The notes beneath the pieces are model-generated. The model saw nothing but the letters and a program-made list of their open reading frames with translations, did not search any database and was not told where the DNA came from. Shown piece by piece: positions 11,763 to 40,847 of a stretch of DNA of 64,000 nucleotides. Numbering within the stretch: position 1 is the stretch's first letter; each line of letters opens with the position of its first letter. A program made the translations under genes and the position numbers. Source of the stretch: Williamsia faeni (GTDB lineage: Bacteria; Actinomycetota; Actinomycetes; Mycobacteriales; Mycobacteriaceae); the NCBI GenBank assembly GCA_003202005.1, contig QJJF01000001.1:217099-281098 (forward strand), in the 5' to 3' direction.

Positions 11763-11852
11763 TTTCGGGAACAAGTTTTTTTTGGGAATGTCACTCCGAT
11801 CCCGAATGTATACGGCCGACTCGCATCACACATCCCATGAGTCACGCGCGCT

Positions 11853-12050
11853 GACCACGTCCTTCGCCGCTGGGAGTCCTCCGGCGGCCGAGTCGCCGAA
11901 CACATCCCCCTCGCCGTACCCGGATGCTCGATACCAGACCAGCCTGATGTAGCGGGATCGCAACCGCATCGCTTTCGACGCCAACCGGAAGATACACGCA
12001 CACATGGTGAAGAACGCCCCGATGCTGTCGGCCGGGATTCACCCTCACAG
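11853..12050 (+). pseudogene. Fragment of the GNAT-like gene found intact at 38665-39420
   Basis: About 200 bp nearly identical to the 3' third of the intact gene at 38665-39420 (11853-12040 against about 39190-39400). The copy here has a two-base deletion after AACACATCCCC and a Trp-to-stop change (TGG to TAG) in the LMWWDRHR region, so it cannot be functional. It lies between the Rv1355c-like gene and the GGDEF gene, the same place its intact counterpart has in the second copy of this block. Confidence 0.85.
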
Positions 12051-15470: not shown

Positions 15471-15471
15471 C

Positions 15472-22040: not shown

Positions 22041-23034
22041 CGGCGAGAATCTCTCGTGCGCGATCGACATAGCGGTGGCCGCCCCCGGCGATCCGGCGGT
22101 AGCCGGCCTCGGCGATCGCGGTGACTTCGGCGGGAGACCGGGTGCACCGATGAAGCTGTGACTCCAGTTCCGCCTCGTCCGAGAAGAGCAACGCCTCGGT
22201 GCCATCGTCGAGAAGTTCGAGGTGTTCGGGAGTTCGTTCTCCCACGAACAAACCGCCGGCCGCGGGGACCTCGAAGGTCCGGCACGTGTGGGTGTCTCTG
22301 TTGTCGGAATTGAGTAATATCAGGTTCGCCGTCACCGGCGCGATGGCGACCGAAAAATCCTGACCGTATTGGGGCCCGGCCACTGTTGCCGACGATTTGA
22401 GCACGAGAGGGTCGCGCTGCCAGCCCGGTCCGGCCAGGTACATGTTGCCGCGGAACTGTTTGGCGAGCCGATGCAAAAGGTCGACGCGGTCGGGTCGGCG
22501 CGACCCGATGAATCCGACTTGGAAGCGCCTGGTCGTGCGTGCAGCACACGGCAGGTGCCAGGCCGGATCGTAAGCGCTGAGCACAAAGGTCACATGCTTA
22601 CCACCACGCTCGATGATCTCCGGGACGTTGTGTCGCTTGGTAGTGACGATCGAATCCCATCGCGATTCGGACGCCAGGTACTCCGGTGTCGTGTTGTACG
22701 GATTGGAGACGTCGTCGGCGCTGTAGTGGACGTGCAAACCTGCAGGTACGTTCAGCAACCGACCCTGGTCGAGGTGAATGGTCTTGTAGCAGAATAGAAT
22801 ATCCGGTTTGATAACAGCGGCTGCTGTCTCGATCTCGTCCTGGACCGCTGCAGTGGTCCAGGACGCGCGGCGGCCACTCACCTTCGCGTACAGCCACGGT
22901 GGGCTCAGCCGCGTCGGCAACGTCACCCGACTCGAGTCGACCACGTCGACCACGTGCCCGGCCTGTCGGAATCCGTCGGCCAATGAGCGGGCGTTGCTGC
23001 CGACCCAGTCGTCGCCGACAAAGAGAATTTTCAC
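22030..23034 (-). CDS. CgeB-like glycosyltransferase
   Basis: A 334-residue protein of the CgeB / Glyco_trans_1_2 group: ILFVGDDWVGSNARSLADG start, CYKTIHLD and HYSADDVSNPYN in the middle, GFIGSRRPDR starting the donor half, and CRTFEVPAAGGLFVGERTPE at the sugar-nucleotide site. The last part (ALLFSDEAELESQL) is typical. It probably adds one sugar of the repeat unit. It lies between the Wzx-like and Wzy-like genes, overlapping both. Confidence 0.82.
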   Translation of the reverse strand: MKILFVGDDWVGSNARSLADGFRQAGHVVDVVDSSRVTLPTRLSPPWLYAKVSGRRASWTTAAVQDEIETAAAVIKPDILFCYKTIHLDQGRLLNVPAGLHVHYSADDVSNPYNTTPEYLASESRWDSIVTTKRHNVPEIIERGGKHVTFVLSAYDPAWHLPCAARTTRRFQVGFIGSRRPDRVDLLHRLAKQFRGNMYLAGPGWQRDPLVLKSSATVAGPQYGQDFSVAIAPVTANLILLNSDNRDTHTCRTFEVPAAGGLFVGERTPEHLELLDDGTEALLFSDEAELESQLHRCTRSPAEVTAIAEAGYRRIAGGGHRYVDRAREILADVC

Positions 23035-24368
23035 TATGCACCACCAGATTTCGCTGTTCCGTGCTGCAACGACTTCTCAGTCCCACTGTTTTCGGGACGC
23101 ACCAACGGATGCAGTCGAATCAGGTGTCGGACCCGGAGCAGATAGAAGCAAGCGACAACCGTTTCGGCGACCAACATCCCGGTGACCACCGTCCACACCG
23201 AATGGTTGTGCAATGCGACTCCCAGGAAGATCAGAATACAAGCGGTGCCGATGAGCGAGCCGTAGAGCACGCCGCGCGCGTCCCTGCAAACCGGTAAGAC
23301 GGCGGTGGTGACAAACGATGCGACGGCAGTGCCGGGCAGGATGAAGGCCTGCAATTGCATCACCGGGACCGCAGCCCGAAAATTGTCGCCAAAGACGAGT
23401 GGGATCGCGAACGGGGCGACGAGCGCGAGAGCGACCGCGAAGACCACTGAGAGTAGGAACACCCCGAGGATGCCCCGCCGGATTGTGTGCCAGAAATCGG
23501 CGGCCTGCCGCCGGGCTGCAAAGCGGGGCAACAGGCCGAATCCGATCGCATCAAGCATTGACGAGGCGGCCTGCACCGGGCGATCACTGGCCGAGAAGAT
23601 CCCGAGCGACCGCGCCGAAAGGGAAAGCGAGAACAGTGTGGCCACGCCCTGTTCGTAGGTGTTCTCAAGCATCCGGGAGGTGAGTACCGGGATACCCATG
23701 CGCACCATGGGACCTATCGCTTTCGGGCGCCGAGGCATCCCGTACTCACGAATGGTGGAGGTCCAGGTCCACACCACGGAAACGAGACTCGACCCGGCGA
23801 GACAGAACATCGCAACGTACGGCGTTCGTACATTGGGCAGGATGGCGACGATCAACACAAGATAGAGCACCCTCCCGCACATCTCGATGATCATGAGACG
23901 ACCGAAACGGGCCTGCCCCAGGAGAATCCAGCCTTCTCCCATCGCGGAAACTCCCCCACAAACCAGACCGACCACAACCATCCGTATGTGCGGGTGGGTG
24001 TCGAACACCAGCACGACTGATGCGATGCAAACGATCACGGAGAGAATGCCGAGCCGGATCGCCAGATAGTTGCCGCGTAACGAGCGAACGTCTTCATCGC
24101 GAAGCTCAGCGGCAAGGAACGTCGTAATGCCCATGTCGATGAGGAGTGAGCCGAGAAAATATGCCGACATCCCCACCGCGAGCAGGCCCACACCGTCTGT
24201 CCCGAGCGTTCTGGCGATGAGCGGAAGCGTCACCAGAGTGATCAGATATTGCCCGTACTTACCGAAAGTCACATAAGCGATGTCACGAACCAGTGCAAGC
24301 TTGGCGAGTGTTCGTGAGTTACCGCCCGGTTTCATTTTCAGTCCGGTCGGATCGCTCGGATCAGCCAT
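23034..24368 (-). CDS. Wzx-type polysaccharide flippase
   Basis: About 444 residues from ATG 24368, overlapping the upstream GT4 stop by eight bases. Twelve or so helices of the polysaccharide-transport (PST/MOP) family: YGQYLITLVTLPLIARTLGTDGVGLLAVG at the N terminus is the classic Polysacc_synt signature. It would move the lipid-linked repeat unit across the membrane for the Wzy-like enzyme encoded two genes on. Confidence 0.88.
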   Translation of the reverse strand: MADPSDPTGLKMKPGGNSRTLAKLALVRDIAYVTFGKYGQYLITLVTLPLIARTLGTDGVGLLAVGMSAYFLGSLLIDMGITTFLAAELRDEDVRSLRGNYLAIRLGILSVIVCIASVVLVFDTHPHIRMVVVGLVCGGVSAMGEGWILLGQARFGRLMIIEMCGRVLYLVLIVAILPNVRTPYVAMFCLAGSSLVSVVWTWTSTIREYGMPRRPKAIGPMVRMGIPVLTSRMLENTYEQGVATLFSLSLSARSLGIFSASDRPVQAASSMLDAIGFGLLPRFAARRQAADFWHTIRRGILGVFLLSVVFAVALALVAPFAIPLVFGDNFRAAVPVMQLQAFILPGTAVASFVTTAVLPVCRDARGVLYGSLIGTACILIFLGVALHNHSVWTVVTGMLVAETVVACFYLLRVRHLIRLHPLVRPENSGTEKSLQHGTAKSGGA

Positions 24369-25542
24369 TCGGGCGCCCTCTGACGAGATTCGAGGACGGT
24401 GCACGAAGAAACCCGTCGACAGTGGCTGCGGTTTCCTCGACGGTGAATCTGGCAACCGTCGATCGCGCCCGCTCCGCAAGTTCCCATCGAAGCACGGGGT
24501 CACCTATCAGGTTGTCGAGCGCCTGCGTCAGGGCTTCGATGTCGGTGGGGTCGACGAGGAGCCCGTCCACGGCGTCGGTGACGATTTCCAGCGGTCCGCC
24601 GGCATTCGCGGCGATCACCGCGCAGCCCGCCGCCATCGCCTCCACAATCACCTGTCCGAACGGTTCGGTCGTTCGCGAACAGTGCACCGCGATGTCTGCG
24701 TCGGCAAGATAGGTCGATGGATCGGATACGTGGCCGGTGAAGGTCACCGAGTCGGTCAGTCCCAGTTCCGTGACCAATTCGGCCAGTTCACCTCCGAAGT
24801 CCTCGCCGAAGTGCGCGCCGCCGACAAAGGTCGCCTGTGGTTTGAACGCCGATCGGGCGAGCGCCCGCAAGAGCAGGTCTTGGCCCTTCCACCTTTCCAG
24901 GCGCCCGACCATGACGATTCGGACCTGGTCTGGTGGACGTTGTACGTGGACCGCCACGTCGACAGCTTCCACTCCCGGATACGCCACGACCGACCGCTTT
25001 CGATAGGTCATCAGGGACTGCAACGTCGAATTGCTGTTTGCGATGTACCCCGAGCTCACCGACCAGCCCAGAAACCGCAGGATGGAGGCCATCGCAGTCC
25101 CGAAAAACTCAGATGAAACCCGATCGTGCACGTGCCAGATGACCGGGACCCGCGCCCGGCGGGCAGCGACCGCACCCATCAGCAACGCTTTGGTCGATTC
25201 GGCGACGACAACAGTGGAACCACTCGTCCGGATCACCTCACCGATGTCCCAGCCGAGCCGGACCATTTGCCACGCCCCGGACAAAATCGCGATACGTGCG
25301 CCACCAATCGTCACTTTCGTGCTGTCGAACTGGCCGGACACCACGCGCACCGGCACCCCTCGTCTGCTGAGTTCGGCGACCATCGGGCCATCCTGAGTGA
25401 ACAGTACCGTTGAGGTCACGCCCATGCTCCGCAAAGCGGTTGCCAGGCGGACGGTGGCCAGTTCGGCACCAGAAGCGGCCGCGGTGTGCGAGAGAAAGGT
25501 GATCGCGGGTTCGCGGACGGCCACCGATCGACGTCCGATCAC
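24361..25542 (-). CDS. GT4-family glycosyltransferase
   Basis: A 393-residue GT-B enzyme: ITFLSHTAAASGAELATVRLA start, VIWHVHDRV, VMVGRLERWKGQDLLL (donor-domain entry), DIAVHCSRTTEPFGQVIVEAMAAGCAVIA (the E-x7-E nucleotide-sugar motif) and AGGPLEIV. It is cytoplasmic or peripheral and adds a retained-configuration sugar to the lipid-linked repeat unit. It overlaps both neighbours in the operon. The sugar specificity cannot be read. Confidence 0.9.
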   Translation of the reverse strand: MIGRRSVAVREPAITFLSHTAAASGAELATVRLATALRSMGVTSTVLFTQDGPMVAELSRRGVPVRVVSGQFDSTKVTIGGARIAILSGAWQMVRLGWDIGEVIRTSGSTVVVAESTKALLMGAVAARRARVPVIWHVHDRVSSEFFGTAMASILRFLGWSVSSGYIANSNSTLQSLMTYRKRSVVAYPGVEAVDVAVHVQRPPDQVRIVMVGRLERWKGQDLLLRALARSAFKPQATFVGGAHFGEDFGGELAELVTELGLTDSVTFTGHVSDPSTYLADADIAVHCSRTTEPFGQVIVEAMAAGCAVIAANAGGPLEIVTDAVDGLLVDPTDIEALTQALDNLIGDPVLRWELAERARSTVARFTVEETAATVDGFLRAPSSNLVRGRPNG

Positions 25543-26618
25543 GAATCAAACCTGGAGTAGGCCTTCAGGTGCCGATCGACACATCGATCCCAAGTGAATT
25601 CGGCCGCACGGCTGCGGCATTCAGCGGCAGACGGACGCTCACCCTTGATCGCCCGGACGAGCCGGTCGGCGATGGCGACAGTATCTTCGCTGGGAACGAT
25701 CAAGCTGTCGTCAAATCCCCGCACCGAATCCGGTAGTCCGCCGGTATCGGTGACGATCGGTGCACGGCCTGCGGCCAATGATTCGAGTGCTATGAGTCCG
25801 AAGCCTTCGAGGGCCCGGGTGGGAACGACCGTGACGGTCGCCTGCCGGTACGCATCGGCCAATTCGATGTCGGATGCGTTACCCGCGAACGAGACAGACT
25901 CTCCGCAACCGGTGCCGGCGGCCTGTTCGCGCAGTGCCGCACCTTCGGTGCCGGTGCCGACGATCAGCAATTCGGCGTCGGGGATCTCGGCACGTACCGC
26001 ACCCCAGGCGTCGATCAATACGTCGATGCCCATCCGGCGCTCCAGTCGCCGTACGCACAACACGATCGGGCGGTCCGCGGATGGTTCGTCGGTGGCCAGT
26101 GAGAAGCGTTCGAGGTCGACACCCGGCGGGATCACCTCGATGATGGCCGGATCGACCCTGTAGTCATTGACGAGGAGGTTGCGCACGTACTCCGTCAACA
26201 CCACAACCAGATCGCTACCGGCGTACCTCCGACGTTCCCAAAGATACTTGGCTCGAACCGCCGCTGCGTTCTCTCCGCCGACCGCGCTCTCCGCCGCCCA
26301 CGGTCCGTGAAAATGAGTGACCAGACGGGTTCCCCTGCGCCGGCCCAAGACTGGCGGTCCATATAGCGCGAAATGTCGATCGACGATGGTGCCAGGTCTC
26401 GGGCTGGGCGACATGGATGCCCGCACGCGCGACAATGTCGAGCCGGTCGGCGCGCCCCAGCTGTGGGCACCGGCGGGAGGCCGGCCGAACGCAAAAGCAG
26501 AGACGTCAACACCCTCGGTTGCGATGAGTGCCTGCGCGAGATCGGTGAAATAACGGTTGAGCCCGCCGCGTGAGGTGCCGAACCACTCAGAACCGGCCAT
26601 CTGAATATCCATGGACAT
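25539..26618 (-). CDS. GT4-family glycosyltransferase
   Basis: About 359 residues from ATG 26618 (a second in-frame ATG lies two codons on); a longer upstream reading would run into the ligase gene. Motifs: MAGSEWFGTSRGGLNRYFTD, VTHFHGPWA, VLCVRRLERRMGIDVL, VVPTRALEGFGLIALESLAAGRAPIV and DTGGLPDSV. This is a standard GT-B retaining transferase. It follows the amino acid:carrier ligase by 11 bases, so the carrier-protein pathway and sugar assembly are transcribed together. Confidence 0.88.
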   Translation of the reverse strand: MSMDIQMAGSEWFGTSRGGLNRYFTDLAQALIATEGVDVSAFAFGRPPAGAHSWGAPTGSTLSRVRASMSPSPRPGTIVDRHFALYGPPVLGRRRGTRLVTHFHGPWAAESAVGGENAAAVRAKYLWERRRYAGSDLVVVLTEYVRNLLVNDYRVDPAIIEVIPPGVDLERFSLATDEPSADRPIVLCVRRLERRMGIDVLIDAWGAVRAEIPDAELLIVGTGTEGAALREQAAGTGCGESVSFAGNASDIELADAYRQATVTVVPTRALEGFGLIALESLAAGRAPIVTDTGGLPDSVRGFDDSLIVPSEDTVAIADRLVRAIKGERPSAAECRSRAAEFTWDRCVDRHLKAYSRFDS

Positions 26619-26629
26619 CCGACGCTCAC

Positions 26630-27589
26630 TCACGTGAGATGCGCGCGAACCGGCGCAGGCCACCCCGTGATGTCGAGACCGAACGTGCGAAGCATCGCCA
26701 ACGCGATGCGCTCCATCCCGAAGCCGACACACGCGCTGTGCGCAACTTCTCCGCCGGCTGTGGTGATCCCGAATGCCTCGCCAAAGTGGTCTTGGTGGCA
26801 GTTACACGACACCACAGCGGTCCCGTCATCGAGGTCACCGTAAAGCCGGACAACCAATTCCGTCTTGAGGTTCTCCTCGCGCTGTCCCGCAGCGAGAATA
26901 CGACCGGCGCGCCCGAAAAACGGGTCGTTCGCCGCCTCTTGTCTTGCCGTGAGTCCCAATTCGGCCAGCACGTCGAGCCCACGCCCCACCCACTCGTCTC
27001 GGTGGGCTCGAGCTTCCGCCGGCGTCCCCACACGGACGAACTCGTGCATCCGGAATGCCTGCATTCGAGCGGGGTCCACTGCCGGCTCGTGGCGAAAGCA
27101 GAATCCGTAGACGTCGAGCAACACACCTTCTTCCGAAAGTGTCTTTGGCAGTGTCGAATAACTCGGGTGGCAGGCTGCGGACACCAACATCGTTCCGGCG
27201 GATTCGAGATGGTGATCCCAGTCCCGGCCGGCCTCGCGATCTGCCAGCAGCGATCGATGGTCCTTGTTGTCCCCGGTGAACGTCGAAATCGCACCGGTCA
27301 GATTGGGGAAGGACGCGATGTAGTCGGTCTTCTCGAATGCGTCACGGGGAAATACCGGCGGAAACCGTAACTTTCGCGGACTTGCACCATAGGCTGCGAC
27401 ACCGGCTTTGACGACCAGTCGGTCTATGCCGTCGATGATCTGTTCAAAATCCGAGCTACGGCCGTACAGGCCATCGATTCCGGTGGGGATCAACAGCTGG
27501 GCTGCAATCAGTTCGTCACGAAACCTGGCCCGTTCCCGGTCGAGATCGCTTGCCCTGTCATCGGTTACGGAGCCCGAAATAAACGTCAT
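26630..27589 (-). CDS. Amino acid:[carrier protein] ligase (class II aaRS-like)
   Basis: About 319 residues. It looks like the catalytic core of an atypical seryl-tRNA synthetase without a tRNA-binding arm. It has Cys140 (LVSAACHPSYS), Glu183 (MHEFVRVG) and Cys287 (HSACVGFGMER), matching the three zinc ligands of the Bradyrhizobium enzymes, plus the class II motif 3 (GFGMERI). Those enzymes activate glycine or alanine with ATP and load it on the phosphopantetheine of a small carrier protein. Its ATG follows the dehydrogenase stop by one base. A carrier protein and AcpS-type enzyme lie on the divergent operon, a complete loading set. Amino acid specificity is not readable here. Confidence 0.9.
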   Translation of the reverse strand: MTFISGSVTDDRASDLDRERARFRDELIAAQLLIPTGIDGLYGRSSDFEQIIDGIDRLVVKAGVAAYGASPRKLRFPPVFPRDAFEKTDYIASFPNLTGAISTFTGDNKDHRSLLADREAGRDWDHHLESAGTMLVSAACHPSYSTLPKTLSEEGVLLDVYGFCFRHEPAVDPARMQAFRMHEFVRVGTPAEARAHRDEWVGRGLDVLAELGLTARQEAANDPFFGRAGRILAAGQREENLKTELVVRLYGDLDDGTAVVSCNCHQDHFGEAFGITTAGGEVAHSACVGFGMERIALAMLRTFGLDITGWPAPVRAHLT

Positions 27590-27590
27590 G

Positions 27591-28754
27591 TCAATTACCC
27601 CTCTGCGCAAGCACCAGAGATGCATTGTTCGCCCGAATTCGATCGTTGGACACCATGAGTTGTGGGCCATACGAGTCGCGGAGCAACCGTCCCATCGATG
27701 CGGCATGGTCTTCGCGGTACCCACTGATACCGCACAGCGCCAATGCTCCGGCCACCACATCTACCACGGCCAGCGAGGCATCGAGTTTGAGGTTGTTCAT
27801 CGCGAACGTGAATCCGACGGTGGGGTCGGGCTCGCCGGTCGCCAGGAAGGTTTCGTAACGATCGATCTGCTGTGCCACCGACGCAACGAATCTCTGGTGG
27901 ATCACCATCAGATCGGCGAGTTTCGCGGCCTGCGGTGGCGTCGAGGTTCCCGCCTTCCTTGCTGCCGATCGGACCTGACTGCGCGCCTTTGCCACTGCGG
28001 CGTCCGCGATTCCCAGCCAGACCGATGCCCACAACGTGTGCGATGCGGGGAGCATCGTGTGCGACGAGATCGAGGCGTACTCGGCGGGCACGACATTGGC
28101 CGCGTCGGTGCGGCTGCGGATGATGAAACCCGGGCTGCAGGTGCCGCGAAACCCGAGTACATCCCAGGTCCCGGTCTTCTCGAGCTCAGTGTCTCCGCGC
28201 GGGCAGACGACCAAAACCTGATCGGTTGGTCGACTGTCCGGATCGCGGCGGGCAGTTGCGCAGATGTAGTCGGCGTATTCGCCGTAGGAGATCACCGGAG
28301 CGTTCTTCTCCAGCACGACCACGTCACCGTGCCGCACGACCGCACAACTCGACGTCCGCACATCGCCACCGGTACTGATCTCCGTGGTCGCCGACGCCAG
28401 CAGCGCCTCCTCGGCGGCAATTCTCCGGGTCAGCTCGGCGATTGGTCCGGCAGCCGCATGCCAACGCAGACTCAAGGCCTGCGTGTGGTGCATGGCAAAG
28501 ACCATCCCGGCTGAACTGCAGGCGGCTCCCAACTGACGGGCAATCGCGGTCAGTTCGGTGATCGAGGCGGATTGACCACCGAGTTCGACCGGAAGCGAAC
28601 AGGACAGCAACCCGTGCGATCGCATCGCATCGACCGCCTCGACCGGAAACCGGGAGTTGCGATCCACGTCATCCGCGGCCGCCGACGCCGCCGCCACCGC
28701 GGCAGTGGCGTCAGGACGAGCACTCTCGGAAATGGTTGGCGCTGTAGTCGTCAA
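27591..28754 (-). CDS. Acyl-CoA dehydrogenase-family flavoprotein
   Basis: A 387-residue protein with the ACAD fold: helical N-terminal domain (SRFPVEAVDAMRSHGLL, GAACSSAGMVFAMHHT), middle beta domain (VVLEKNAPVISYGEYAD, TWDVLGFRGTCSPGF) and C-terminal four-helix FAD domain ending CGISGYREDHAASMGRLLRD. In its context the substrate may be an aminoacyl or acyl group on the nearby carrier protein instead of a CoA ester, as for prolyl-carrier dehydrogenases in antibiotic pathways; this is inference. It is the first gene of the minus-strand EPS operon and is divergent from the carrier gene. Confidence 0.87.
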   Translation of the reverse strand: MTTTAPTISESARPDATAAVAAASAAADDVDRNSRFPVEAVDAMRSHGLLSCSLPVELGGQSASITELTAIARQLGAACSSAGMVFAMHHTQALSLRWHAAAGPIAELTRRIAAEEALLASATTEISTGGDVRTSSCAVVRHGDVVVLEKNAPVISYGEYADYICATARRDPDSRPTDQVLVVCPRGDTELEKTGTWDVLGFRGTCSPGFIIRSRTDAANVVPAEYASISSHTMLPASHTLWASVWLGIADAAVAKARSQVRSAARKAGTSTPPQAAKLADLMVIHQRFVASVAQQIDRYETFLATGEPDPTVGFTFAMNNLKLDASLAVVDVVAGALALCGISGYREDHAASMGRLLRDSYGPQLMVSNDRIRANNASLVLAQRGN

Positions 28755-28847
28755 CGAGTTGTCCTCAGTCCGGGTTTGGGAGCGTGCGGAAACCGCGAAC
28801 CCAGCGGCACACTACACTAACCTAATCTTGTGACGCCGCAAAGATTT

Positions 28848-28882
28848 CACGATACGTAGTCCCGGTTACAGACCGTATCGTG
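28848..28882. promoter_or_regulatory. Inverted repeat in the divergent EPS/carrier promoter region
   Basis: CACGATACG (28848-28856) and its exact reverse complement CGTATCGTG (28874-28882) are separated by 17 bp, in the roughly 180-bp gap between the dehydrogenase and carrier genes. A partial repeat of GACCGT..GTGGTC follows. The gap must drive both arms of EPS cluster 1, so this is a good candidate operator for co-regulation. No regulator gene adjoins it. Confidence 0.5.
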
Positions 28883-28933
28883 GTCGGACCGTGGTCCCCC
28901 GTTGACCTGCCTTGAGACATGAGGAAAGTAGTC

Positions 28934-29179
28934 GTGCAAACCCGAATCCGTGAAATTGTCGCCTCCCACGGCAAGATGTCGATCGACCTCAGCTCCTTGA
29001 GCTCGAATGCCGACCTGTACGAATTGGGCCTCACCTCGCACGCGAGTGTGAACGTGATGCTCGCGCTCGAGGACGAGTTCGACATCGAGTTCCCAGACGA
29101 AGACCTCAAGAAGGCCACTTTTGCCTCCGTGGAGAACATCGAGGCCGTGGTCAGCCGCCTCACCGGCGATTCAGTGTGA
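28934..29179 (+). CDS. Aminoacyl/acyl carrier protein
   Basis: An 81-residue acidic four-helix carrier protein. The phosphopantetheine site is LGLTSHASV (Ser35), where acyl carriers normally have DSL; the Thr-Ser form with Ser at the right place is typical of variant carriers. MLALEDEFDIEFPDEDL is the usual acidic recognition helix. I chose GTG 28934, which has GAGGAAAG six bases upstream; an ATG at 28919 is less well placed. It should be loaded by the divergent amino acid:carrier ligase after activation by the AcpS-like enzyme at 33707. Its stop overlaps the next gene's GTG (GTGA). Confidence 0.9.
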   Translation: MQTRIREIVASHGKMSIDLSSLSSNADLYELGLTSHASVNVMLALEDEFDIEFPDEDLKKATFASVENIEAVVSRLTGDSV

Positions 29180-30153
29180 CCACCGCGCGAAGTGGTGACT
29201 CGATTTCACTCTCGGCGTTGCACCCTGGCACGTATCAACCGCATTTCGCGCATTCGGACAATCGAATCTGGCGGGAAACCAATTGTTACGCCGATTTGTG
29301 GATAGAGGTCCTTCACGCCCTCGGGCATGATCCCGTGCCCTCATTTGTGTCCGCGCTGTCCGCTGATCACGATGGCGAACAGTGGACCTTCTTGAAGATG
29401 GAACAGACCGATCTTCGAATCCTCTACGGCCTCGAGGTCACAGAGGACACCCTGTGGCGACCGGTTCTCGACACTGTCGAAAGCGGTCCTCGCCGCTCTC
29501 TTTTCCATACTGTGGAAGTCGATAGTTGGTGGCTGCCAGACACTATCGGCACCGACTACCACAGCGCCCATGTCAAGACCACGATCGTCCCCGCCGCTGT
29601 CGACCGTGATAATCGGTCACTCGTGTACTTCCACAACGCCGGACTCTTCGAACTGAGCGGAGACGACTTCACCGGTGTCTTCGGCCTGGACCTGATCGAT
29701 GGCGAGACCTTGCCGCCTTACGTCGAACAGGTCCGGTCGTTCGCGGACCGAGCGCAACCGGACGCCGTTCTCACTTCCGTGCGCGAACACCTGTCGAGGC
29801 GGGCAGCCGGCGACCCGATGGAACGGCTCGCGCGGTCGATCGACGAGGCCGTCGTATGGCTGCCCGAGTACGGTCTCGAGACATTTCATCAATGGGCATT
29901 TGCCACTTTGCGTCAATGCGGCGCCTCTGCCGAGCTCGCTGCCGACCTGTCGGCGTACCTCGGTGCGGGCCCCGCTCCCGGTGCCGACGCGGCCCGAGTG
30001 CCGTTCCTCGAAGTCGCCGAAACCGCCAAGTCGGTCCAGTTCAAGTTGGCGCGCGCGGCCCGCGGCCGCAAGGTCGATGTCGAGGAATCGCTCCAGAAGA
30101 TGTCGGCGTCGTGGGCACAGGCGATGGACATCGTCGCTGCCGCGGTGGAGTAG
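29176..30153 (+). CDS. DUF1839-family protein, carrier-protein partner
   Basis: A 325-residue protein starting GTG, with 4-bp overlap to the carrier gene. ALHPGTYQPHFAHSDNRIW, ETNCYADLWIEVLHALG, WTFLKMEQTDLRILYGLEV and SWWLPDTIGTDYHSAHVKTTI match the DUF1839 family, which is found beside amino acid:carrier ligases in several bacteria. No reaction is established. Conserved Cys, His, Asp and Glu residues in the first 170 residues would suit an aminoacyl transferase role. It has no signal peptide. The tight coupling to the carrier gene is the best functional clue. Confidence 0.85.
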   Translation: MTTARSGDSISLSALHPGTYQPHFAHSDNRIWRETNCYADLWIEVLHALGHDPVPSFVSALSADHDGEQWTFLKMEQTDLRILYGLEVTEDTLWRPVLDTVESGPRRSLFHTVEVDSWWLPDTIGTDYHSAHVKTTIVPAAVDRDNRSLVYFHNAGLFELSGDDFTGVFGLDLIDGETLPPYVEQVRSFADRAQPDAVLTSVREHLSRRAAGDPMERLARSIDEAVVWLPEYGLETFHQWAFATLRQCGASAELAADLSAYLGAGPAPGADAARVPFLEVAETAKSVQFKLARAARGRKVDVEESLQKMSASWAQAMDIVAAAVE

Positions 30154-30156
30154 AGA

Positions 30157-32601
30157 GTGCTAACCGACTGTCGCCTGATAGCCACCGTTCCCGACGAGTT
30201 CGCCGACGTGACTGCTCTGTCCCTCGCACCTGACGTTCCCGCGCTCGCCGTCGAGTGGCGGGGTTTGGTGACTCGGCACCCCTGTTGGTCGGACTTACTG
30301 CTCGCGGTTGGCGACAGCGTTGACGACGCGGACTGGTGGTTGACTGGACGCCATGACAACACGTCCGCGACCCGCCTCCGGTTCGCCGGCCTGACGTTCC
30401 CGGCCACCGTGTACGTCGACGGATCGGCGGTCGCCGAGGTCGAGTCGATGTTCCTTCCGGTTGACGTATCCCTCACTCCGGGGCCACATGAGATCGCGAT
30501 TTGTTTCCGGTCGCTTTCGCAGTGGTTGACGAAGCGCCGCGGGAGGGGCCGGTGGCGATCCAATCTCGTTGCCGAACAGAAACTTCGGTGGGCCCGCACC
30601 ACTTTGCTCGGCCGCGCCCCGGTCTACGGGGGGTCACCGGCCCCCGTCGGGCTCTGGAGGACGACAGAGGTGATCGCCGGTCTCTGCCTGGACGACGTCG
30701 ACGTGCAATGCGACGTTGCCGACTCCCGGGTCAGGATTTCTGGCCGGTGCACCGATGCCGGCGGCACTCCCGCGGCCGGCCGCGAGATCAGCTGCGGCAT
30801 CAGCCGCGACGACACAATCATCACCACGGCCCGAACCCGGACCGCGCCAGACGGCAGTTTTACCGCAACCATCGACGTCGTTGCACCGGAACTGTGGTGG
30901 CCCCGCGGTTACGGCAGCCAGACACTGTACGAATTGGACCTGCACGTAGCCGAGACTCGAATCCACCGTCGCCGTATCGGTTTTCGCAGCATCGACATCG
31001 ACCCTGCGACCGCACCGATCGGTTTCGGCCTGATGGTGAACGGTGTTCCCGTCTTCTGCCGAGGCGCAGTGTGGATGCCTGCCGATTCCGCGGATGTCGA
31101 CGCCTCCACGGATGCGATTCGGCATCACCTCCGGCTGCTCGCGGATGCCGGAGCCAATATGGTCCGGATACCCGGTGGCACCGTCTACGAAAAGCCGGAA
31201 TTCTGGAGTACCTGCGCAGAACTGGGAATTCTTGTGTGGCAGGACACGATGTTGGCAACTTTCGACCCCCCGACCGAGCTGAACGACGTGGTTGCCGCCG
31301 AGTTACAAGAGGTATTGCGCGCCATCGGTGGCAATCCATCCCTCGCTGTGGTCAGCGGCGGTAACGAGACTCTGCAGCAACCCGAAATGCTCGGCTTACC
31401 GACGCTTTCGCGCAACATTGACCTCATCGAGCATCGGCTGCGCACGATCGCCGCAGCCGCTCGGATCCCATACGTACCGTCAAGCCCCTCCGCGCCACCG
31501 CATAGTCCGGGCCTGGCGATTCGGCCCAGTTCCGGTGTGGCCCACTGGTTCGGCGTCGGAGGGTATCTTCAGCCACTGAGTTCCGTTGCAAACGCGCATG
31601 TCCGGTTCGCCGCCGAGTCACTGGCCTTTTCGATTCCATCCATCCCGGCCGCGGTGGAACAGCATTTCGGATCGTCGGCAGCCGCCGGTCACGATCCGCG
31701 CTGGAAATCCGGCGTTCCCCGCGACAAAGGGGCATCGTGGGACTTCGAAGATGTCCGCGACCATTATGTCCGCGAAATCTTCGCAGTGGACCCGATGCAG
31801 GTGCGCCGCACGGACCCCGACCGCTATCTGCAGCTGGGACGAATGGCGGTCATCGCGGCAATGAACCATTGCTTCGCCTTTTGGCGGCGACGTGACTCTG
31901 AATGTCGCGGCGCGCTGGTGCTTTCCGCCAAGGACCTGGTGGCGGGGCCGGGCTGGGGTCTCATCGATGTCGATGGTAACGCCAAGGCCACGCTGTCAGC
32001 CATACACCGGATCTGGTCGCCCGTCACGATTATTCTCTCGAACGAGGGACTCGACGGGGTCCGCGTAGACATTTTCAATGACAATTCGACGTCGCTCTCT
32101 GCGCGACTCGAACTCACAGCCACCGACTCTGCCGGCCGCGTCGTCGTCGACGGTCACACAGAAATGGTCATTCCCGAGAGGTCATCGACAACGATGCATG
32201 ATTCCGAGATCACCGGCGTGTTCCGCGACCTGGCACATGCGTACCGATTCGGTCCCGCCGGCGCGGATGCCGTGCAAGTCACGATGACCACCGAACAAGG
32301 ATCACCCATCGCACGCGATGCGCTCGTCATCAAGCCTGTGTCCGCTCCCGCCCGCACTGAACTACGCGCGAGTGCGAGCGCGGATGAGAAAGGTTCTTGG
32401 TACCTCGAAGTCATCGCCGACGCCGCCCTGCGATGGGTCGAGATCGACATTCCGGGTTGGCGCCCGGCAGACAACTATTTCCACCTCGCACCGGGCCTGC
32501 CCTATCGAGTCTCACTCAAAGGCACCAGCGCCACAGCACCTTCGGGTCGCGTGAGCTCAGTGGACTCGACGACGGTCGCGAAGGTCGCGGTCGCCGGATG
32601 A
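30157..32601 (+). CDS. Glycoside hydrolase family 2-like (beta-mannosidase-like) protein
   Basis: An 814-residue GH2-type protein starting GTG three bases after DUF1839. N-terminal jelly roll (ATVYVDGSAVAEVESMFLPVDVSL), Ig-like domain (ELWWPRGYGSQTLYELDL), then a TIM barrel with NGVPVFCRGAVWMPAD, DAGANMVRIPGGTVYE, LGILVWQDTM, the acid/base motif SGGNE and a probable nucleophile in FAAESLAFSIPSIP. The C-terminal 180 residues are beta-rich. No signal peptide is visible, so it should act in the cytoplasm, where it could trim or edit precursors or degrade repeat units. Specificity is unknown. Confidence 0.85.
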   Translation: MLTDCRLIATVPDEFADVTALSLAPDVPALAVEWRGLVTRHPCWSDLLLAVGDSVDDADWWLTGRHDNTSATRLRFAGLTFPATVYVDGSAVAEVESMFLPVDVSLTPGPHEIAICFRSLSQWLTKRRGRGRWRSNLVAEQKLRWARTTLLGRAPVYGGSPAPVGLWRTTEVIAGLCLDDVDVQCDVADSRVRISGRCTDAGGTPAAGREISCGISRDDTIITTARTRTAPDGSFTATIDVVAPELWWPRGYGSQTLYELDLHVAETRIHRRRIGFRSIDIDPATAPIGFGLMVNGVPVFCRGAVWMPADSADVDASTDAIRHHLRLLADAGANMVRIPGGTVYEKPEFWSTCAELGILVWQDTMLATFDPPTELNDVVAAELQEVLRAIGGNPSLAVVSGGNETLQQPEMLGLPTLSRNIDLIEHRLRTIAAAARIPYVPSSPSAPPHSPGLAIRPSSGVAHWFGVGGYLQPLSSVANAHVRFAAESLAFSIPSIPAAVEQHFGSSAAAGHDPRWKSGVPRDKGASWDFEDVRDHYVREIFAVDPMQVRRTDPDRYLQLGRMAVIAAMNHCFAFWRRRDSECRGALVLSAKDLVAGPGWGLIDVDGNAKATLSAIHRIWSPVTIILSNEGLDGVRVDIFNDNSTSLSARLELTATDSAGRVVVDGHTEMVIPERSSTTMHDSEITGVFRDLAHAYRFGPAGADAVQVTMTTEQGSPIARDALVIKPVSAPARTELRASASADEKGSWYLEVIADAALRWVEIDIPGWRPADNYFHLAPGLPYRVSLKGTSATAPSGRVSSVDSTTVAKVAVAG

Positions 32602-33710
32602 ACACACCCAGGATTGCGCTCGTGCACGAACGGCTGACCGAGATCGCCGGCTCCGAGCACGTCGTCGAACAACTGGCACACGAGTGGCCCAAGTCGAAAC
32701 TGTTTGTCCCTTTCGCCGACCCCGCCGCGGTCAACAACATCCTGCGGGACCGCGTGATCACCGGACCTCTCGATCACCTCTACCGTGCCACCGGTCGCAG
32801 ATCGTATGCGCCGCTGCTCCCCCTGGTGCCAACCGCATTACGGCGCATTGACTACGGCGATGTCGATGCAATCATCATCAGCCACCACGCGATGGCTTTG
32901 TCCGCCGTCCGCAACGCCGGATCGACGCCGACCATCGCCTACGTCCATTCACCGGCTCGTTGGGCCTGGGACCCGGCAATGCGGGCCGGCGAAGCCTCCG
33001 GGATCGCCGGGAAGTCCGCCTTGTCGCTCCTCGCCCGGATCGCGCGCCGCGCCGAATCCACTGCGGCGCCCAAGATCACCACAGTCGTCGCAAACAGCAC
33101 AGAGGTCGCCGATCGCATCCGGCGGTGGTGGAATCGGGAGTCGACAGTAGTTCATCCTCCCGTCGATACCGAGCGCTACTCAATCGACCCGAATGCCGTC
33201 CGAGACGATTTCTTTCTACTCGCGGGCAGGTTGGTACCCTACAAGCGGCCCGAGATCGCCATCGCCGCAGCCGAACAGGCCGGGGTCCGGCTGATCGTGG
33301 CCGGTTCTGGCCGTCTGGCCGACGACTGCCGAAAATTGGCCGGTCCGACGACCGTCTTTCTCGGTCGGGTCACAGATGCAGAGATGCTTTCCCTGCAGCG
33401 ACGCGCACAAGCCCTTCTCATGCCCGGTGTCGAAGACTTCGGAATCGTACCGGTCGAAGCAATGGGTTGTGGCACACCCGTTCTCGCGGTTGACGAAGGA
33501 GGTGCACTGGACACAGTAATACCCGGGTTGAGTGGCGAGCTCATTCCAAACGGTTCCGACGATGCGCTGATCGACGCTCTTGCCGCGGCAATGTCGGCGT
33601 TTGATGCCAAGGAGTATGACCACAACGCCATCTCGGATCACGCACAGCAATTTTCGCGAGCAAACTTCCGGAAATCCATGCGTGACATCGTCGAAGCCCA
33701 GCTCCGATGA
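32598..33710 (+). CDS. GT4-family glycosyltransferase (WbaZ-like)
   Basis: About 370 residues from ATG 32598, overlapping the GH2-like stop (ATGA). Motifs: IALVHERLTEIAGSEHVVEQ, AYVHSPARWAWDP, VVHPPVDTERYS, LLAGRLVPYKRPEIAI, ALLMPGVEDFGIVPVEAMGCGTPVLA and EGGALDTV. This subgroup includes WbaZ-type mannosyl/rhamnosyl transferases acting on undecaprenyl-linked sugars. It overlaps the AcpS-type gene downstream, so sugar assembly and carrier activation share an mRNA. Confidence 0.88.
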   Translation: MNTPRIALVHERLTEIAGSEHVVEQLAHEWPKSKLFVPFADPAAVNNILRDRVITGPLDHLYRATGRRSYAPLLPLVPTALRRIDYGDVDAIIISHHAMALSAVRNAGSTPTIAYVHSPARWAWDPAMRAGEASGIAGKSALSLLARIARRAESTAAPKITTVVANSTEVADRIRRWWNRESTVVHPPVDTERYSIDPNAVRDDFFLLAGRLVPYKRPEIAIAAAEQAGVRLIVAGSGRLADDCRKLAGPTTVFLGRVTDAEMLSLQRRAQALLMPGVEDFGIVPVEAMGCGTPVLAVDEGGALDTVIPGLSGELIPNGSDDALIDALAAAMSAFDAKEYDHNAISDHAQQFSRANFRKSMRDIVEAQLR

Positions 33711-34111
33711 ACCAACCGGACGCGGTCCGGATCGGTTGCGACGTGGTGAGCCTGGCAGACATCGACGATTCGATGGACAGCTTCGGTGATCGATTCCTCC
33801 ACCGGGTGTTCACCAACCGCGAAATCCAATTTTGCACCGTCACCGGCACTGTCCGGCGGGAGCGCCTCGCCGCCCGTTTTGCGGCGAAGGAGGCTGTGGT
33901 CAAGGCACTGGCGATTCCGGACATCGCCACACCCCCGCATGAGATCGAGGTGATCAACGATGCGACTGGTCGCCCACACATTGTCCTGCACGGCTCGATC
34001 GCTGCTCTGGCCAGATCCCAGGATTGGGGTCCCGTTCAGGTCTCGCTATCCCATACTGATTGTCACTCCATGGCCGTCGTCGCGGTGCTGATCACGCCAA
34101 CAGCCTCCTGA
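33707..34111 (+). CDS. AcpS-type 4'-phosphopantetheinyl transferase
   Basis: A 134-residue protein of normal AcpS length. IGCDVVSLADID has the metal-binding Asp, RVFTNREIQF is the conserved FT..E segment, ARFAAKEAVVKAL is the WxxKEA-type motif with metal-binding Glu, and VSLSHTD closes the family signature. It transfers phosphopantetheine from CoA to a carrier-protein serine. Being the last gene of the carrier operon (ATGA overlap with the GT4), it is most simply a dedicated activator of the carrier at 28934, separate from the housekeeping AcpS. Confidence 0.9.
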   Translation: MNQPDAVRIGCDVVSLADIDDSMDSFGDRFLHRVFTNREIQFCTVTGTVRRERLAARFAAKEAVVKALAIPDIATPPHEIEVINDATGRPHIVLHGSIAALARSQDWGPVQVSLSHTDCHSMAVVAVLITPTAS

Positions 34112-34579
34112 ACCGTGAGGTTTGCCGATCCGGTGCTAATCTCAGCTTCCGACAATGATCAATGCTCGGTTCGCAAGGCTGATTCGGTAGGAGAGCGCAT
34201 GGAGCCTGTCCAGAGGGTCGTCCTCGATGCATCGGCCTTGTCGAGTTCACCGATCGATCCGGAACGGCCTGCGCCTTGACAGAAACGACGCCGCACTGTT
34301 CCCGGTCGGCGAATGGACCGCCTGGCTCGTGCCCGAATACGCTCGCAAACCTGCGATTCTGCGTTCTTTCCTGCCATAGGGCGGCGGCGGCGGTAGAGTA
34401 CGAAGCAACGTTTGACCGGTGTTAACCGTCTCACGAAGCATCACGACCTTAAGATCGTGCGCGAGGTCAGATTTGCAGATACGCTTGCTTTCGCTAGAAC
34501 AAACCCCTCGACCAATAAACTTGTTCCGAAAATCTCTCGCCAACTCAGAGAATGCAAACATACCTCAGAGAATGCAAAC
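34112..34579. other. Gap with decayed short coding remnant and promoter
   Basis: About 470 bp between the AcpS-type gene and the glycosylphosphotransferase. An AGGAG site precedes ATG 34199 and a 26-codon ORF (ends 34279). In another frame the sequence continues as a plausible protein tail (DAALFPVGEWTAWLVPEYA, about 34283-34340), suggesting a small frameshifted gene relic. The AT-richer DNA from about 34400 probably contains the next gene's promoter. Confidence 0.35.
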
Positions 34580-34581
34580 AT
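34544..34581. repeat. 20-bp-period tandem repeat at the start of the glycosylphosphotransferase gene
   Basis: CTCAGAGAATGCAAACAT occurs at 34544-34561 and again at 34564-34581, a 20-bp period. The second copy runs into the ATG at 34580. Each copy includes an ATG in another frame. A period of 20 is not a multiple of three, so gain or loss of a unit would change upstream frame and leader length. Confidence 0.7.
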
Positions 34582-35983
34582 GCAGCCCAAGACTTCCGGG
34601 CGACTGGATGGGCCGATGAATCGAGGCCTGAGAAGTCGGACCTCGGGCCGGAAGTACTTCGTAACCCGCAGACGTACCGACACCTTGCTGTTGATCCTCG
34701 AGCTCGCAGCGGTCATGTTCGGTCTCAGCGTCATATCCGAGTCGACGGTTGTCACCATTTTCGGCCCGATAATTGTCGTCGGGTTGGTGGAAATATCTGG
34801 AAACTATCGCGCCCAGATAACTCTCTCTGCACTCAACGATCTGCCACGTCTCGCGACGGTTTGTTTCGTCGCGACATTCTCCGTAGCCGTCCTTTTTGAA
34901 ATCGGTGCCGACGTATTGCGAGTTTTGTCGCTGTCGACAGTGGTCTTCGTCATTCTCTTTGCCATCCGAGTCGTCTATTACGCTCTGCGCAGACGCCGGC
35001 GGCGCACCTCAGTCAGCGCCCGCAGCAGAACGGTGGTCGTCGGCGGCGGGGTGGTGGCTGCCGAGTTGCTGGAGAGTATTGCCGAATACCCCGAATTGGG
35101 GCTCGAGCCCATAGCCGTCGTTGACGGCGACCCGCTGTACGGCACCGATCGACTCCTGGTGCCGGTGTTCTCCGGCAGACCGCTTCGCGAGATCGTCGTA
35201 GCGGAAAACATCCAGACGGTGATCGTGGCCTTCCGGAATACCCCTGATTCAACTCTTGTGTCGGCGCTGCGCGAATGTGGCCGGCTCGACTGCGAGATTT
35301 TCATCGTTCCCCGTCTCTTCGAGTTTGTTCATCTGACCGCCGACATGGACCGAATCCACACGATTCCGTTGATCAGGGTCCGGCGCGACACCTACCGAAC
35401 CTGGTTCTGGCATTTCAAGCGCATCTTCGATTTCACGGTGTCGTCAACAGCCATGTTGTTATTGTCCCCCCTGCTAGTTGCCACGGCACTGGCCATCTAT
35501 TTCTCCGACCGGAAGTCGCCGATCATCTTCAGTCAGGTGCGCGTAGGGCGAAACGGCAAAGAGTTCACGCTGTTCAAATTTCGGTCGATGCGACCGGTTG
35601 AGCAGTCAAGCTCGGACGAGGACTGGAGCCCGGACACGGAAACCCGGGCCAACTTCGTCGGGAAGGTGATCCGCAAAACCTCGATCGACGAGCTCCCTCA
35701 GCTGTGGAATGTCGTGCGCGGCGATATGTCCCTGGTCGGTCCACGACCGGAACGACCCCACTTCGTGGAACAGTTTCTAGATAGCGTTCCCTCTTACGCC
35801 GATCGCCACCGGGTGAATGTGGGACTGACGGGCTGGGCAGCCATCCACGGTCTTCGCGGCGACACCAGCATCGGTGATCGCGTAATCTACGACAATTTCT
35901 ATATCGAGAACTGGTCTATCTGGCTTGATGTGAAGATCATCATCCTGACGATCAAAGCAGTCGTTCGCGGCACCGGATCCTGA
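34580..35983 (+). CDS. Polyprenyl glycosylphosphotransferase initiating EPS cluster 1 (WbaP-like)
   Basis: About 467 residues from ATG 34580 (ATG 34616 also possible). Four N-terminal TM helices, a CoA-binding-like Rossmann domain (TVVVGGGVVAAELLES), a further TM helix, then the bacterial sugar transferase domain: FKRIFDFTVSSTAMLLLSPLL, IIFSQVRVGRNGKEFTLFKFRSM, RKTSIDELPQLWNVVRGDMSLVGPRPE. It transfers a sugar-1-phosphate to undecaprenyl phosphate, the first step of repeat-unit synthesis. It stands just after the carrier operon. Confidence 0.92.
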   Translation: MQPKTSGRLDGPMNRGLRSRTSGRKYFVTRRRTDTLLLILELAAVMFGLSVISESTVVTIFGPIIVVGLVEISGNYRAQITLSALNDLPRLATVCFVATFSVAVLFEIGADVLRVLSLSTVVFVILFAIRVVYYALRRRRRRTSVSARSRTVVVGGGVVAAELLESIAEYPELGLEPIAVVDGDPLYGTDRLLVPVFSGRPLREIVVAENIQTVIVAFRNTPDSTLVSALRECGRLDCEIFIVPRLFEFVHLTADMDRIHTIPLIRVRRDTYRTWFWHFKRIFDFTVSSTAMLLLSPLLVATALAIYFSDRKSPIIFSQVRVGRNGKEFTLFKFRSMRPVEQSSSDEDWSPDTETRANFVGKVIRKTSIDELPQLWNVVRGDMSLVGPRPERPHFVEQFLDSVPSYADRHRVNVGLTGWAAIHGLRGDTSIGDRVIYDNFYIENWSIWLDVKIIILTIKAVVRGTGS

Positions 35984-38664: not shown

Positions 38665-39420
38665 TTGACCATCGCATTCGCCCACGACCGCAACATCGCC
38701 CCGATCGCCACCGCTTCGCGTGACTTCACCGCACAGGTCATTGACGAACGGAGCGGTATTACGCTGACCGTGGGTACTCCGCGCTCGGTTCCCGATGTCT
38801 GGGTCGACTACCTCAACGGTGCTCGCAGGAGCTACGCCAAGCATGGCGTCGAGATGGCCCTTGAGTACGACGACGTCGTCCGCGGCGAGTGCACCACACT
38901 GTTCTACGCGGCCCTTGACCACACCGGCTCGGTGATCGGCGGCGTTCGCGCGAAGGGCCCGTACTTCAATGCCCATGACTCACATGCGCTACTCGAATGG
39001 GCAGGTCAGCCGGGGCTGGGGATGGTGATCGACGCAATCGATTCGCGTCTCGATGACGGCGTGGTGGAGATGAAGACGGCCTGGGCCGCCGACGGCCCCG
39101 CTGCTGCCGCGGTTGCCGGGATGCTTGCCCGCGTCGCGCTTCCCACGATGACCCTGACCGGCGCGCGCTACATCATGGCCACCGCCGCCGACCACGTCCT
39201 TCGCCGCTGGGAGTCCTCCGGCGGCCGAGTTGCCGAACACATCCCCGCCTCGCCGTACCCGGATGCTCGATACCAGACCAGCCTGATGTGGTGGGATCGC
39301 CACCGCATCGCCATCGACGCCGATCCGAAGGTACTCGCACACATGGTGCAGGACACCCGAATTCTCGCGGCCGGTGCCGCTCAGACCACCTGGTGGTCAA
39401 CGAGTGACATTGCGGCCTGA
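38665..39420 (+). CDS. GNAT/autoinducer-synthase-like protein, Rv1355c neighbour
   Basis: A 251-residue protein starting TTG with AGGAG eight bases upstream. ITLTVGTPRSVPDVWVDYLN, YDDVVRGECTTLFYAALDHTGSVIGGVR and ARVALPTMTLTGARYIMATAADHVLRRWESSGGRVAEHI suggest an acyltransferase fold similar to N-acyl amino acid or homoserine lactone synthases: a core strand with a GGVR turn followed by a late helix. The match is by eye and could be wrong. It is normally next to Rv1355c-like and GGDEF genes, as shown by the duplicate block at 9633-13244. It is convergent with and overlaps the GGDEF gene by 40 bp. Confidence 0.6.
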   Translation: MTIAFAHDRNIAPIATASRDFTAQVIDERSGITLTVGTPRSVPDVWVDYLNGARRSYAKHGVEMALEYDDVVRGECTTLFYAALDHTGSVIGGVRAKGPYFNAHDSHALLEWAGQPGLGMVIDAIDSRLDDGVVEMKTAWAADGPAAAAVAGMLARVALPTMTLTGARYIMATAADHVLRRWESSGGRVAEHIPASPYPDARYQTSLMWWDRHRIAIDADPKVLAHMVQDTRILAAGAAQTTWWSTSDIAA

Positions 39421-40565: not shown

Positions 40566-40847
40566 GGCGACAATCCTTCTTGAATCCCAAGTAGCTAGGA
40601 CATTGTCGGACACCTGCAACCTCCGACCATACGTTCACGTGATGGACTGTTCAGGGCGCGATTTTCGCTCAACGCCCGACCCCAAAGTGTTGGGAATGAA
40701 CGTCGTAAGTCTAAGCAGCCGGCCGACATCCGGCCCACCTACGGCCTGTAAACCATCCGAGCGATGTAGACTCAACGATTGAACGGGGCCGTCGGAATGC
40801 ATACGCCGGGGATGCAGTCTGCGCTGAATGACCATCGGGAGTTGCAG

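Follow-up and report, generated by a model that had tools for sequence, protein, structure and literature searches.

A candidate carrier-dependent aminoacylation cassette in a polysaccharide locus of Williamsia faeni

Core genes of the locus

A stretch of 64,000 nucleotides from Williamsia faeni (assembly GCA_003202005.1, contig QJJF01000001.1, positions 217,099 to 281,098 of the forward strand) holds a group of genes that may together transfer an amino acid from a carrier protein to a sugar. The whole stretch is called the window here, and all coordinates refer to it. The five core genes of this cassette encode an amino acid:[carrier protein] ligase, an aminoacyl carrier protein, a flavoenzyme, a DUF1839 protein and a glycoside hydrolase family 2 (GH2) protein.

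On the plus strand the order is carrier (28919-29179), DUF1839 (29176-30153), GH2 (30157-32601), a GT4 glycosyltransferase (32598-33710; PF00534, 78.4 bits) and an AcpS-type phosphopantetheinyl transferase (33707-34111; PF01648, 60.2 bits; TIGR00516, 61.7 bits against a cut-off of 59.8). The GH2 gene is placed between DUF1839 and the GT4 gene. Three pairs overlap (carrier/DUF1839, GH2/GT4 and GT4/AcpS), the start of DUF1839 covering the stop of the carrier gene by 4 bases. The minus strand carries the flavoenzyme (27591-28754), whose stop lies one base before the ATG of the ligase (26630-27589), and then two GT4 genes, a Wzx gene, a further glycosyltransferase, a membrane protein, a Wzz gene and a double hydrolase. 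An earlier note, made from the window sequence alone, had placed and named the ligase, the carrier, DUF1839, the AcpS-type enzyme and the dehydrogenase-like neighbour correctly, as the Pfam, NCBIfam and PDB matches show, and the overlap of DUF1839 with the carrier gene is also as it had it. Its list of five genes was nevertheless incomplete, as it overlooked the GH2 gene and the double hydrolase (17471-19168, minus strand) as recurrent partners.

Ligase and carrier protein

The open reading frame of the ligase spans 26630 to 27760 on the minus strand. Its conserved start is the ATG with the first base at 27589, giving 319 residues. The protein matches Bll0957 (PDB 4h2w, E 1.5e-66, chain residues 43-328) and 3mey (E 6.8e-65) and passes the NCBIfam model NF005479, amino acid--[acyl-carrier-protein] ligase, with 424.9 bits against a cut-off of 357. 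Residues C140, E183 and C287, counted from the Met at 27589, each show conservation of at least 97% among 61 sequences (where they appear as C141, E184 and C288, the count starting one residue earlier). The residue numbers in the earlier note are thus exact; we take these residues to be zinc ligands, following that note and the case of Bll0957. Also correct is its description of a class II synthetase homologue without a tRNA-binding arm: the protein has only 319 residues, and against an archaeal-type seryl-tRNA synthetase only the C-terminal catalytic part aligns (chain residues 306-506 of 527).

The carrier reads as 86 residues from an ATG, but the likely start is the GTG at 28934, which fits a relative in another locus (L006) and yields the 81 residues proposed before. 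The Ser of its GLTS motif, the presumed attachment site of the phosphopantetheine arm, is at least 97% conserved (S40 in the 86-residue numbering). The protein passes NF005480 (98 bits against a cut-off of 72), and the nearest solved chains are 4h2w_C and Atu2571 (2jq4). Because it is nearest to aminoacyl carriers and passes their own model, we rejected its identity as a fatty-acid acyl carrier protein (ACP). Ligase and carrier match a biochemically paired family. Ligases such as Bll0957 and their carriers reportedly go back to Mocibob in 2010; the characterised relatives of the ligase load Gly or Ala.

The DUF1839 protein

The DUF1839 protein scores 350.5 bits with PF08893 (cut-off 22.5). A structure model built with 53 sequences reached a predicted local distance difference test (pLDDT) value of 94.1 and a predicted template modelling (TM) score of 0.91. 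In a Foldseek search of the PDB with this model, 19 matches had E<=0.001, and all of them were AziU3/U2, CtaG or CcbD; the 20th match had E 0.15, and other papain-like proteases were found at E >=0.15. CtaG and CcbD matched with E 7e-7 to 3e-5 at probability 1.00, over a papain-like fold with a helical C-terminal part.

C37 and H153 occur in 53/53 DUF1839 sequences, and position 136 is Thr in 50 and Ser in three of them; we assign this residue tentatively as the hydroxyl of a triad. The three positions agree with the C(T/S)H triad given in a 2023 survey, which assigns DUF1839 to the papain-like superfamily and proposes that it processes glycans at the cell wall (PMC10318531). CcbD, one of the lincosamide condensing enzymes (CcbD/LmbD; PDB 7yn1, 9dkr), takes proline from a carrier to its own Cys and then joins it to the amine group of an amino sugar; the amide is formed by a ping-pong mechanism (PMC12945683). 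DUF1839 resembles these enzymes in fold and catalytic Cys, and probably in carrier dependence, but differs in the order of its triad, Cys-Thr/Ser-His, and no sequence homology was found. Since its modelled fold matches CcbD, an enzyme that transfers an amino acid from a carrier to an amino sugar, DUF1839 is most likely a carrier-dependent aminoacyl transferase.

The flavoenzyme

The flavoenzyme passes the model of the acyl-CoA dehydrogenase N-terminal domain (PF02771, 43 bits against 22.9), whereas its middle domain remains below the cut-off (20.2 against 33.3 bits). Its model (pLDDT 90.3) has the acyl-CoA dehydrogenase fold, the best Foldseek E-value being that of butyryl-CoA dehydrogenase. 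The highest TM-scores, however, were to the monooxygenase DszC (0.83). Among the 50 matches listed, dehydrogenases scored 0.75-0.80, the DszC/TdsC monooxygenases 0.77-0.83 and the sugar N-oxygenases (KijD3, DnmZ, nitrososynthase) 0.72-0.77. The ranges overlap, and the model did not separate dehydrogenase from monooxygenase. Acyl-CoA dehydrogenases have their catalytic Glu in a C-terminal YEGT-type motif. This motif was not found in the flavoenzymes of the cassette: in the alignment 18 of 19 rows reach the position, and 17 read M-V-[SN]-N-D and one M-I-G-N-D. Another base could take the place of the Glu. The dehydrogenase that had been noted beside the ligase is thus there as a neighbour and as a fold, but the usual Glu motif is absent and the TM-scores overlap with those to monooxygenases; its reaction may be either a dehydrogenation or an oxygenation.

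GH2 and the double hydrolase

The GH2 protein is beta-mannosidase-like (5n6u, E 8.3e-31). Its glutamates E404 and E487, presumably acid/base and nucleophile as judged from the alignment, are at least 97% conserved in 78 sequences. GH2 is a carbohydrate-active family, and its gene adjoins DUF1839 in almost all loci that extend far enough to reveal it. Because of this steady neighbourhood, the sequence data suggest that both proteins act on the same glycoside.

The double alpha/beta hydrolase matches TIGR03101 at residues 15-154 and TIGR03100 at 316-421, both below the cut-off, and has no Pfam match at E<=0.001. The two models describe the exosortase-A-associated hydrolases 2 and 1. The window protein differs from these in that the halves are fused in one protein and score below the curated cut-offs. 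A double hydrolase was found near 46/76 long cassette loci and near none of 40 control stretches, and directly beside GH2 in 21 of the 54 loci that have both. It is a more specific partner of the cassette than the polysaccharide genes described below. In one locus of Pseudomonadota (L146) a single open reading frame of 1108 residues can be read as a Wzx flippase with two hydrolase domains behind it.

Two side observations concern these genes. In a Planctomycetia cassette (L080) a sulfotransferase and two GT2 genes stand between GH2 and the hydrolase. Second DUF1839 copies lie near Wzz-type and hydrolase genes in L144 and in L145 (12232-13452 of that locus); the Wzz match in L144 is a Wzc-type kinase.

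Distribution and gene order

DUF1839 is rare: it was found in 3/296 genomes of the phylum, in 11/394 of the class and in 16/398 of Pseudomonadota. A single DUF1839 gene is present in the window genome (5.52 Mb, 44 contigs), and eight of nine genomes examined from the genus, this one included, have the family. For comparison of the loci we used a set of 82, the best 80 of 166 confirmed relatives from a contig scan plus two more. This set leans to close relatives and contains near-duplicates (L004 and L060 are apparently the same contig). Sixty-three of the loci are longer than 18 kb (long loci below) and the remaining 19 are not. With our own models, DUF1839 was found in 82 loci, GH2 in 77, the flavoenzyme in 63, the carrier in 62, the ligase in 60 and the AcpS-type enzyme in 39. 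One locus, from a record titled Kitasatospora arboriphila (L013), has the same cassette coordinates as Williamsia muralis L014 and is possibly mislabelled or contaminated.

Gene order was counted in 71 loci with all five core genes, taken from the 82 loci, 16 Pseudomonadota stretches and other loci. The order carrier, flavoenzyme, ligase, DUF1839, GH2 on one strand was present in 48/71, the divergent form of the window in 20/71 and a split form in three (L004, L058, L060); the raw count was 47/20/4, L145 counting as collinear with the closer of its DUF1839 copies. According to the record titles, collinear cassettes occur in Actinomycetes, Chloroflexi, Proteobacteria, Acidobacteriota and Planctomycetia. 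The recurrence of this order in several phyla takes the arrangement far beyond chance, and chance clustering was rejected. In two Rhodococcus genomes where the ligase and DUF1839 seemed to lie apart, a check showed them at opposite ends of a single cluster of about 18 kb that has three GT2 matches in between.

Even samples of genomes were examined as well. In Pseudomonadota 16 genomes hold 18 DUF1839 copies, of which 16 lie in a complete five-gene cassette (one of them in Thiomonas, L071); one of the other two is a second copy adjoining a full cassette and one is at a contig end. All 16 genomes have a ligase above the cut-off. In Actinomycetes stretches were obtained from ten of the 11 DUF1839 genomes (all but G728); eight hold all five genes and two are cut by contig ends.

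Possible alternative loaders

In three loci, two from Reinekea and one from Woeseiaceae, carrier, flavoenzyme, DUF1839, GH2 and hydrolase are present and no ligase was found in the genome. All three have an FkbH-type protein, a family of glyceryl-loading enzymes. At E<=1e-5 FkbH was found in none of 117 other loci searched (79 cassette loci, 18 further stretches and 20 controls). FkbH thus occurs in 3/3 ligase-less loci and 0/60 ligase loci (p 2.5e-5), a comparison in which two of the three are from one genus and which leaves out 19 loci. Because an extra ACP adjoins FkbH in the two Reinekea loci, FkbH may there serve this ACP and not the cassette carrier.

Some further ligase loci deserve mention. 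In L186-L195 of Pseudomonadota carrier, flavoenzyme and ligase stand without DUF1839 and GH2, apparently a second use of aminoacyl carriers; no Pfam match was found for the open reading frames that adjoin the ligase of L188, L189 and L190. L198-L203 belong to a lower-scoring ligase subfamily (16 genomes, mostly longer open frames), and neither carrier nor flavoenzyme was detected nearby in these six loci. In L149 (genome G515) one TAA lies inside the matched ligase frame.

Polysaccharide genes around the cassette

Downstream of the ligase, all on the minus strand, are two GT4 glycosyltransferases (25539-26732, PF00534, 100.2 bits, the upstream start of this frame overlapping the ligase; 24361-25542, PF00534, 126.1 bits), a Wzx-type flippase (23034-24503; PF01943, 61.7 bits), a glycosyltransferase (22030-23034; PF13524, 82.2 bits), a membrane protein (20619-22205) and a Wzz chain-length determinant (19165-20628; PF02706, 30.2 bits). 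A polyprenyl glycosylphosphotransferase, the initiating sugar transferase, follows on the plus strand (34412-35983; PF02397, 210.9 bits; TIGR03025 above the cut-off). The membrane protein is membrane-rich by hydropathy and has no family match in Pfam or NCBIfam; it is a possible Wzy. The polysaccharide genes that were said to share operons with the cassette are thus borne out by family models for Wzx, Wzz, the sugar transferase and several glycosyltransferases, while Wzy has only a candidate in the membrane protein.

To place the window in context, stretches of up to about 10 kb on either side of the cassette were searched with models for GT4, GT2, Wzx, Wzz and the sugar transferase; these were built from the loci themselves and can miss other families. 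Controls were 40 stretches at hand-picked round coordinates, 20 from three actinobacterial genomes and 20 from Pseudomonadota and two Rhodococcus. At least one polysaccharide gene was found near 45 of the 63 long loci, which are not independent, and in 6/40 controls (3/20 in each half). In the even Pseudomonadota sample 8/13 long loci had one, again against 6/40 (p 0.002).

Several searches concerned amino-sugar genes. The window itself has a PseC-like sugar aminotransferase (58804-59937, minus strand; PF01041, 345.5 bits; TIGR03588, 295.9 bits, below its cut-off of 423.5), which belongs to a second polysaccharide locus (about 45-63 kb) that has a sugar transferase and a Wzz of its own, and which is a possible source of the amino sugar. 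Tight linkage of the cassette to such genes was looked for with an aminotransferase family and two deacetylase families in 20 genomes, and a general pattern was not apparent among the matches listed. The cassette has deacetylases within about 10 kb in two genomes (G304 and G580) and a PIG-L protein in a third (G700).

Proposed route and alternatives

From these families, conserved residues and gene orders we infer a route in which the reactions, their order, the amino acid and the acceptor would be as follows. The AcpS-type enzyme would arm the carrier; the ligase would activate a small amino acid with ATP and load it on the phosphopantetheine arm; and the flavoenzyme would oxidise the carrier-bound aminoacyl group. 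DUF1839 would then bind the acyl group to Cys37 and transfer it to an amine, most likely one on an amino sugar; the product would be an amide, as with CcbD in the biosynthesis of celesticetin. In the window the acceptor would most likely be the sugar of a lipid-linked repeat unit or a nucleotide precursor, and GH2 and the double hydrolase may serve to trim or edit that glycan or acyl chain. We consider this route as a whole, from ligase over carrier, flavoenzyme and DUF1839 to an amino sugar, moderately probable. If it is true, a surface glycan or glycoside is aminoacylated by a route resembling that of nonribosomal peptide synthetases (NRPS) in several phyla.

A number of observations weigh against it. 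The fold match of DUF1839 has TM-scores of 0.50-0.62 at 11-16% identity, and a DUF1839 profile gave 0 matches to PDB sequences at E<=10, leaving no sequence link to CcbD. The Cys-Thr/Ser-His order of its triad is swapped relative to Cys-His-Glu in CcbD, and a Cys-His-Glu/Asp order was not found. AziU3/U2, the top Foldseek match, does different chemistry. The sugar aminotransferase of the window is about 29 kb from the cassette, none being tightly linked, and a one-sequence search with it placed a homologue near a single cassette (L070). Among the long loci of the even Actinomycetes sample, 2/7 had polysaccharide genes nearby, which does not differ from the controls (p 0.58); the even samples pooled gave 10/20 (p 0.006). 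No such gene was detected near 18/63 long loci of the large set and 5/7 of the even Actinomycetes sample. Nineteen of the 82 loci have neither ligase nor FkbH in the stretch; for L024, L037 and L044, all three genomes searched among these (the other 16 were not searched), the ligase is elsewhere in the genome. Finally, DUF1839 is absent from 12/28 Pseudomonadota ligase genomes: their 12 loci have ligase and flavoenzyme, and in ten of them the carrier, without DUF1839 or GH2, and no glycosyltransferase was detected in the fetched stretch either. Since the trio of carrier, flavoenzyme and ligase occurs without these partners, it would have at least one other use.

Polysaccharide context as a universal feature was rejected on these counts. 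The cassette is often, by no means always, in polysaccharide loci. A genome-context check had been proposed for this association; its result is mixed, with an excess over the controls in Pseudomonadota and no difference from them in the even Actinomycetes sample. Likewise, the statement that the pathway is built into an exopolysaccharide cluster applies to the window, but elsewhere the cassette is often alone. Decoration of a polysaccharide is plausible from the gene context. The stand-alone cassettes also speak for a different product, a small soluble or lipid-linked aminoacyl glycoside comparable to a lincosamide or mycothiol, with the polysaccharide neighbours sharing only sugar supply or regulation. 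The acceptor of CcbD is a small amino sugar, and by hydropathy the DUF1839 and GH2 proteins of the window have no membrane stretch (signal peptides were not checked with a dedicated tool) and the flavoenzyme contains a single internal hydrophobic stretch, at about residue 326. Yet the Wzx-hydrolase fusion frame, the likeness of the hydrolase halves, below cut-off, to hydrolases of exosortase exopolysaccharide systems and the excess of polysaccharide genes in Pseudomonadota speak for a link to polymers, and we regard the small glycoside as possible but not the likelier product.

The amide itself can be questioned. The acyl group could go to a hydroxyl, giving an ester as in O-glycylated lipopolysaccharide or D-alanylated teichoic acids, and the fact that the aminotransferase homologue was unlinked in nearly all loci tested by the one-sequence search fits this. 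CtaG uses an amine, and so does CcbD; an ester thus seems unlikely. DUF1839 could also act on the carrier-bound acyl group as a hydrolase, thioesterase or cyclase, with GH2 and the hydrolases degrading and not building. Papain-like folds are mostly hydrolytic, AziU3/U2 is the top match, and hydrolases recur near the cassette. On the other side, CcbD and CtaG form amides in a carrier-dependent way, and the other papain-like proteases match the model far less well, so that we think a hydrolytic or cyclising DUF1839 quite improbable. A bolder extension of the amide-forming route is that the flavoenzyme acts at the alpha position or the nitrogen, giving an imine, keto, N-hydroxy or nitroso group, that DUF1839 puts this non-protein acyl group on a glycan, and that the loader is interchangeable, being an aminoacyl ligase in most lineages and FkbH-type in two genomes of Reinekea and one of Woeseiaceae. 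We offer this extension tentatively and consider it doubtful. If true, it would mean modular carrier-protein acylation of surface sugars in at least five phyla, by a system whose chemistry differs from that of the known transferases dependent on aminoacyl-tRNA or acetyl-CoA.

Relation to earlier work

The core hypothesis is not new and has been in print since 2010. In a note added in proof, Aravind, de Souza and Iyer predicted that this neighbourhood ligates an amino acid to the amine of a cell-surface sugar, with an unknown protein as the proposed ligase for the sugar amine and the redox enzyme as a probable monooxygenase (PMC2922099). Their neighbourhood consists of a synthetase homologue, an ACP, a redox enzyme, an Atu2574-type protein, a glycosidase and liposaccharide genes, and shares gene set and proposed function with the cassette; from the context, we infer that Atu2574 is DUF1839. 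They reached the amino-acid-to-sugar conclusion independently. Their text, the additional file aside, gives the uncharacterised protein no fold and mentions neither a hydrolase nor an FkbH replacement nor a controlled polysaccharide test. The NRPS-like route from ligase over carrier to sugar in the earlier note is supported by context and by DUF1839 as candidate transferase, but the idea is not new.

Bll0957-type pairs share with the window genes the ligase fold, the Cys/Glu/Cys positions and the carrier subfamily, and a 2022 review still calls their downstream step and the role of the loaded amino acid unknown (PMC9437257). To such a pair the window adds a presumed transferase, a GH2 protein, glycosyltransferases and an AcpS-type enzyme. 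In our literature search we found no experimental study of the cassette, and DUF1839 was named in one paper. The fold match to amide formers, the double hydrolase, the FkbH replacement, the cross-phylum gene order and the controlled polysaccharide test were not found in print. The fold match between DUF1839 and CcbD turns the context prediction of 2010 into a test with two proteins.

Other genes in the window

Genes for three GGDEF proteins and one EAL protein lie on either side of the cluster (12045-13244, 39381-40619, 40779-42095, 42239-43222), and the first two of these genes lie inside DNA repeats of about 1.36 kb that are 71% identical. They may exert cyclic di-GMP control over the polysaccharide. 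A protein at 9633-11774 on the minus strand belongs to the Rv1355c family and combines a ThiF domain with an Acg-type nitroreductase. A stand-alone NRPS condensation-domain protein (13683-15545, minus strand) adjoins the polysaccharide genes and is possibly another acyl transferase.

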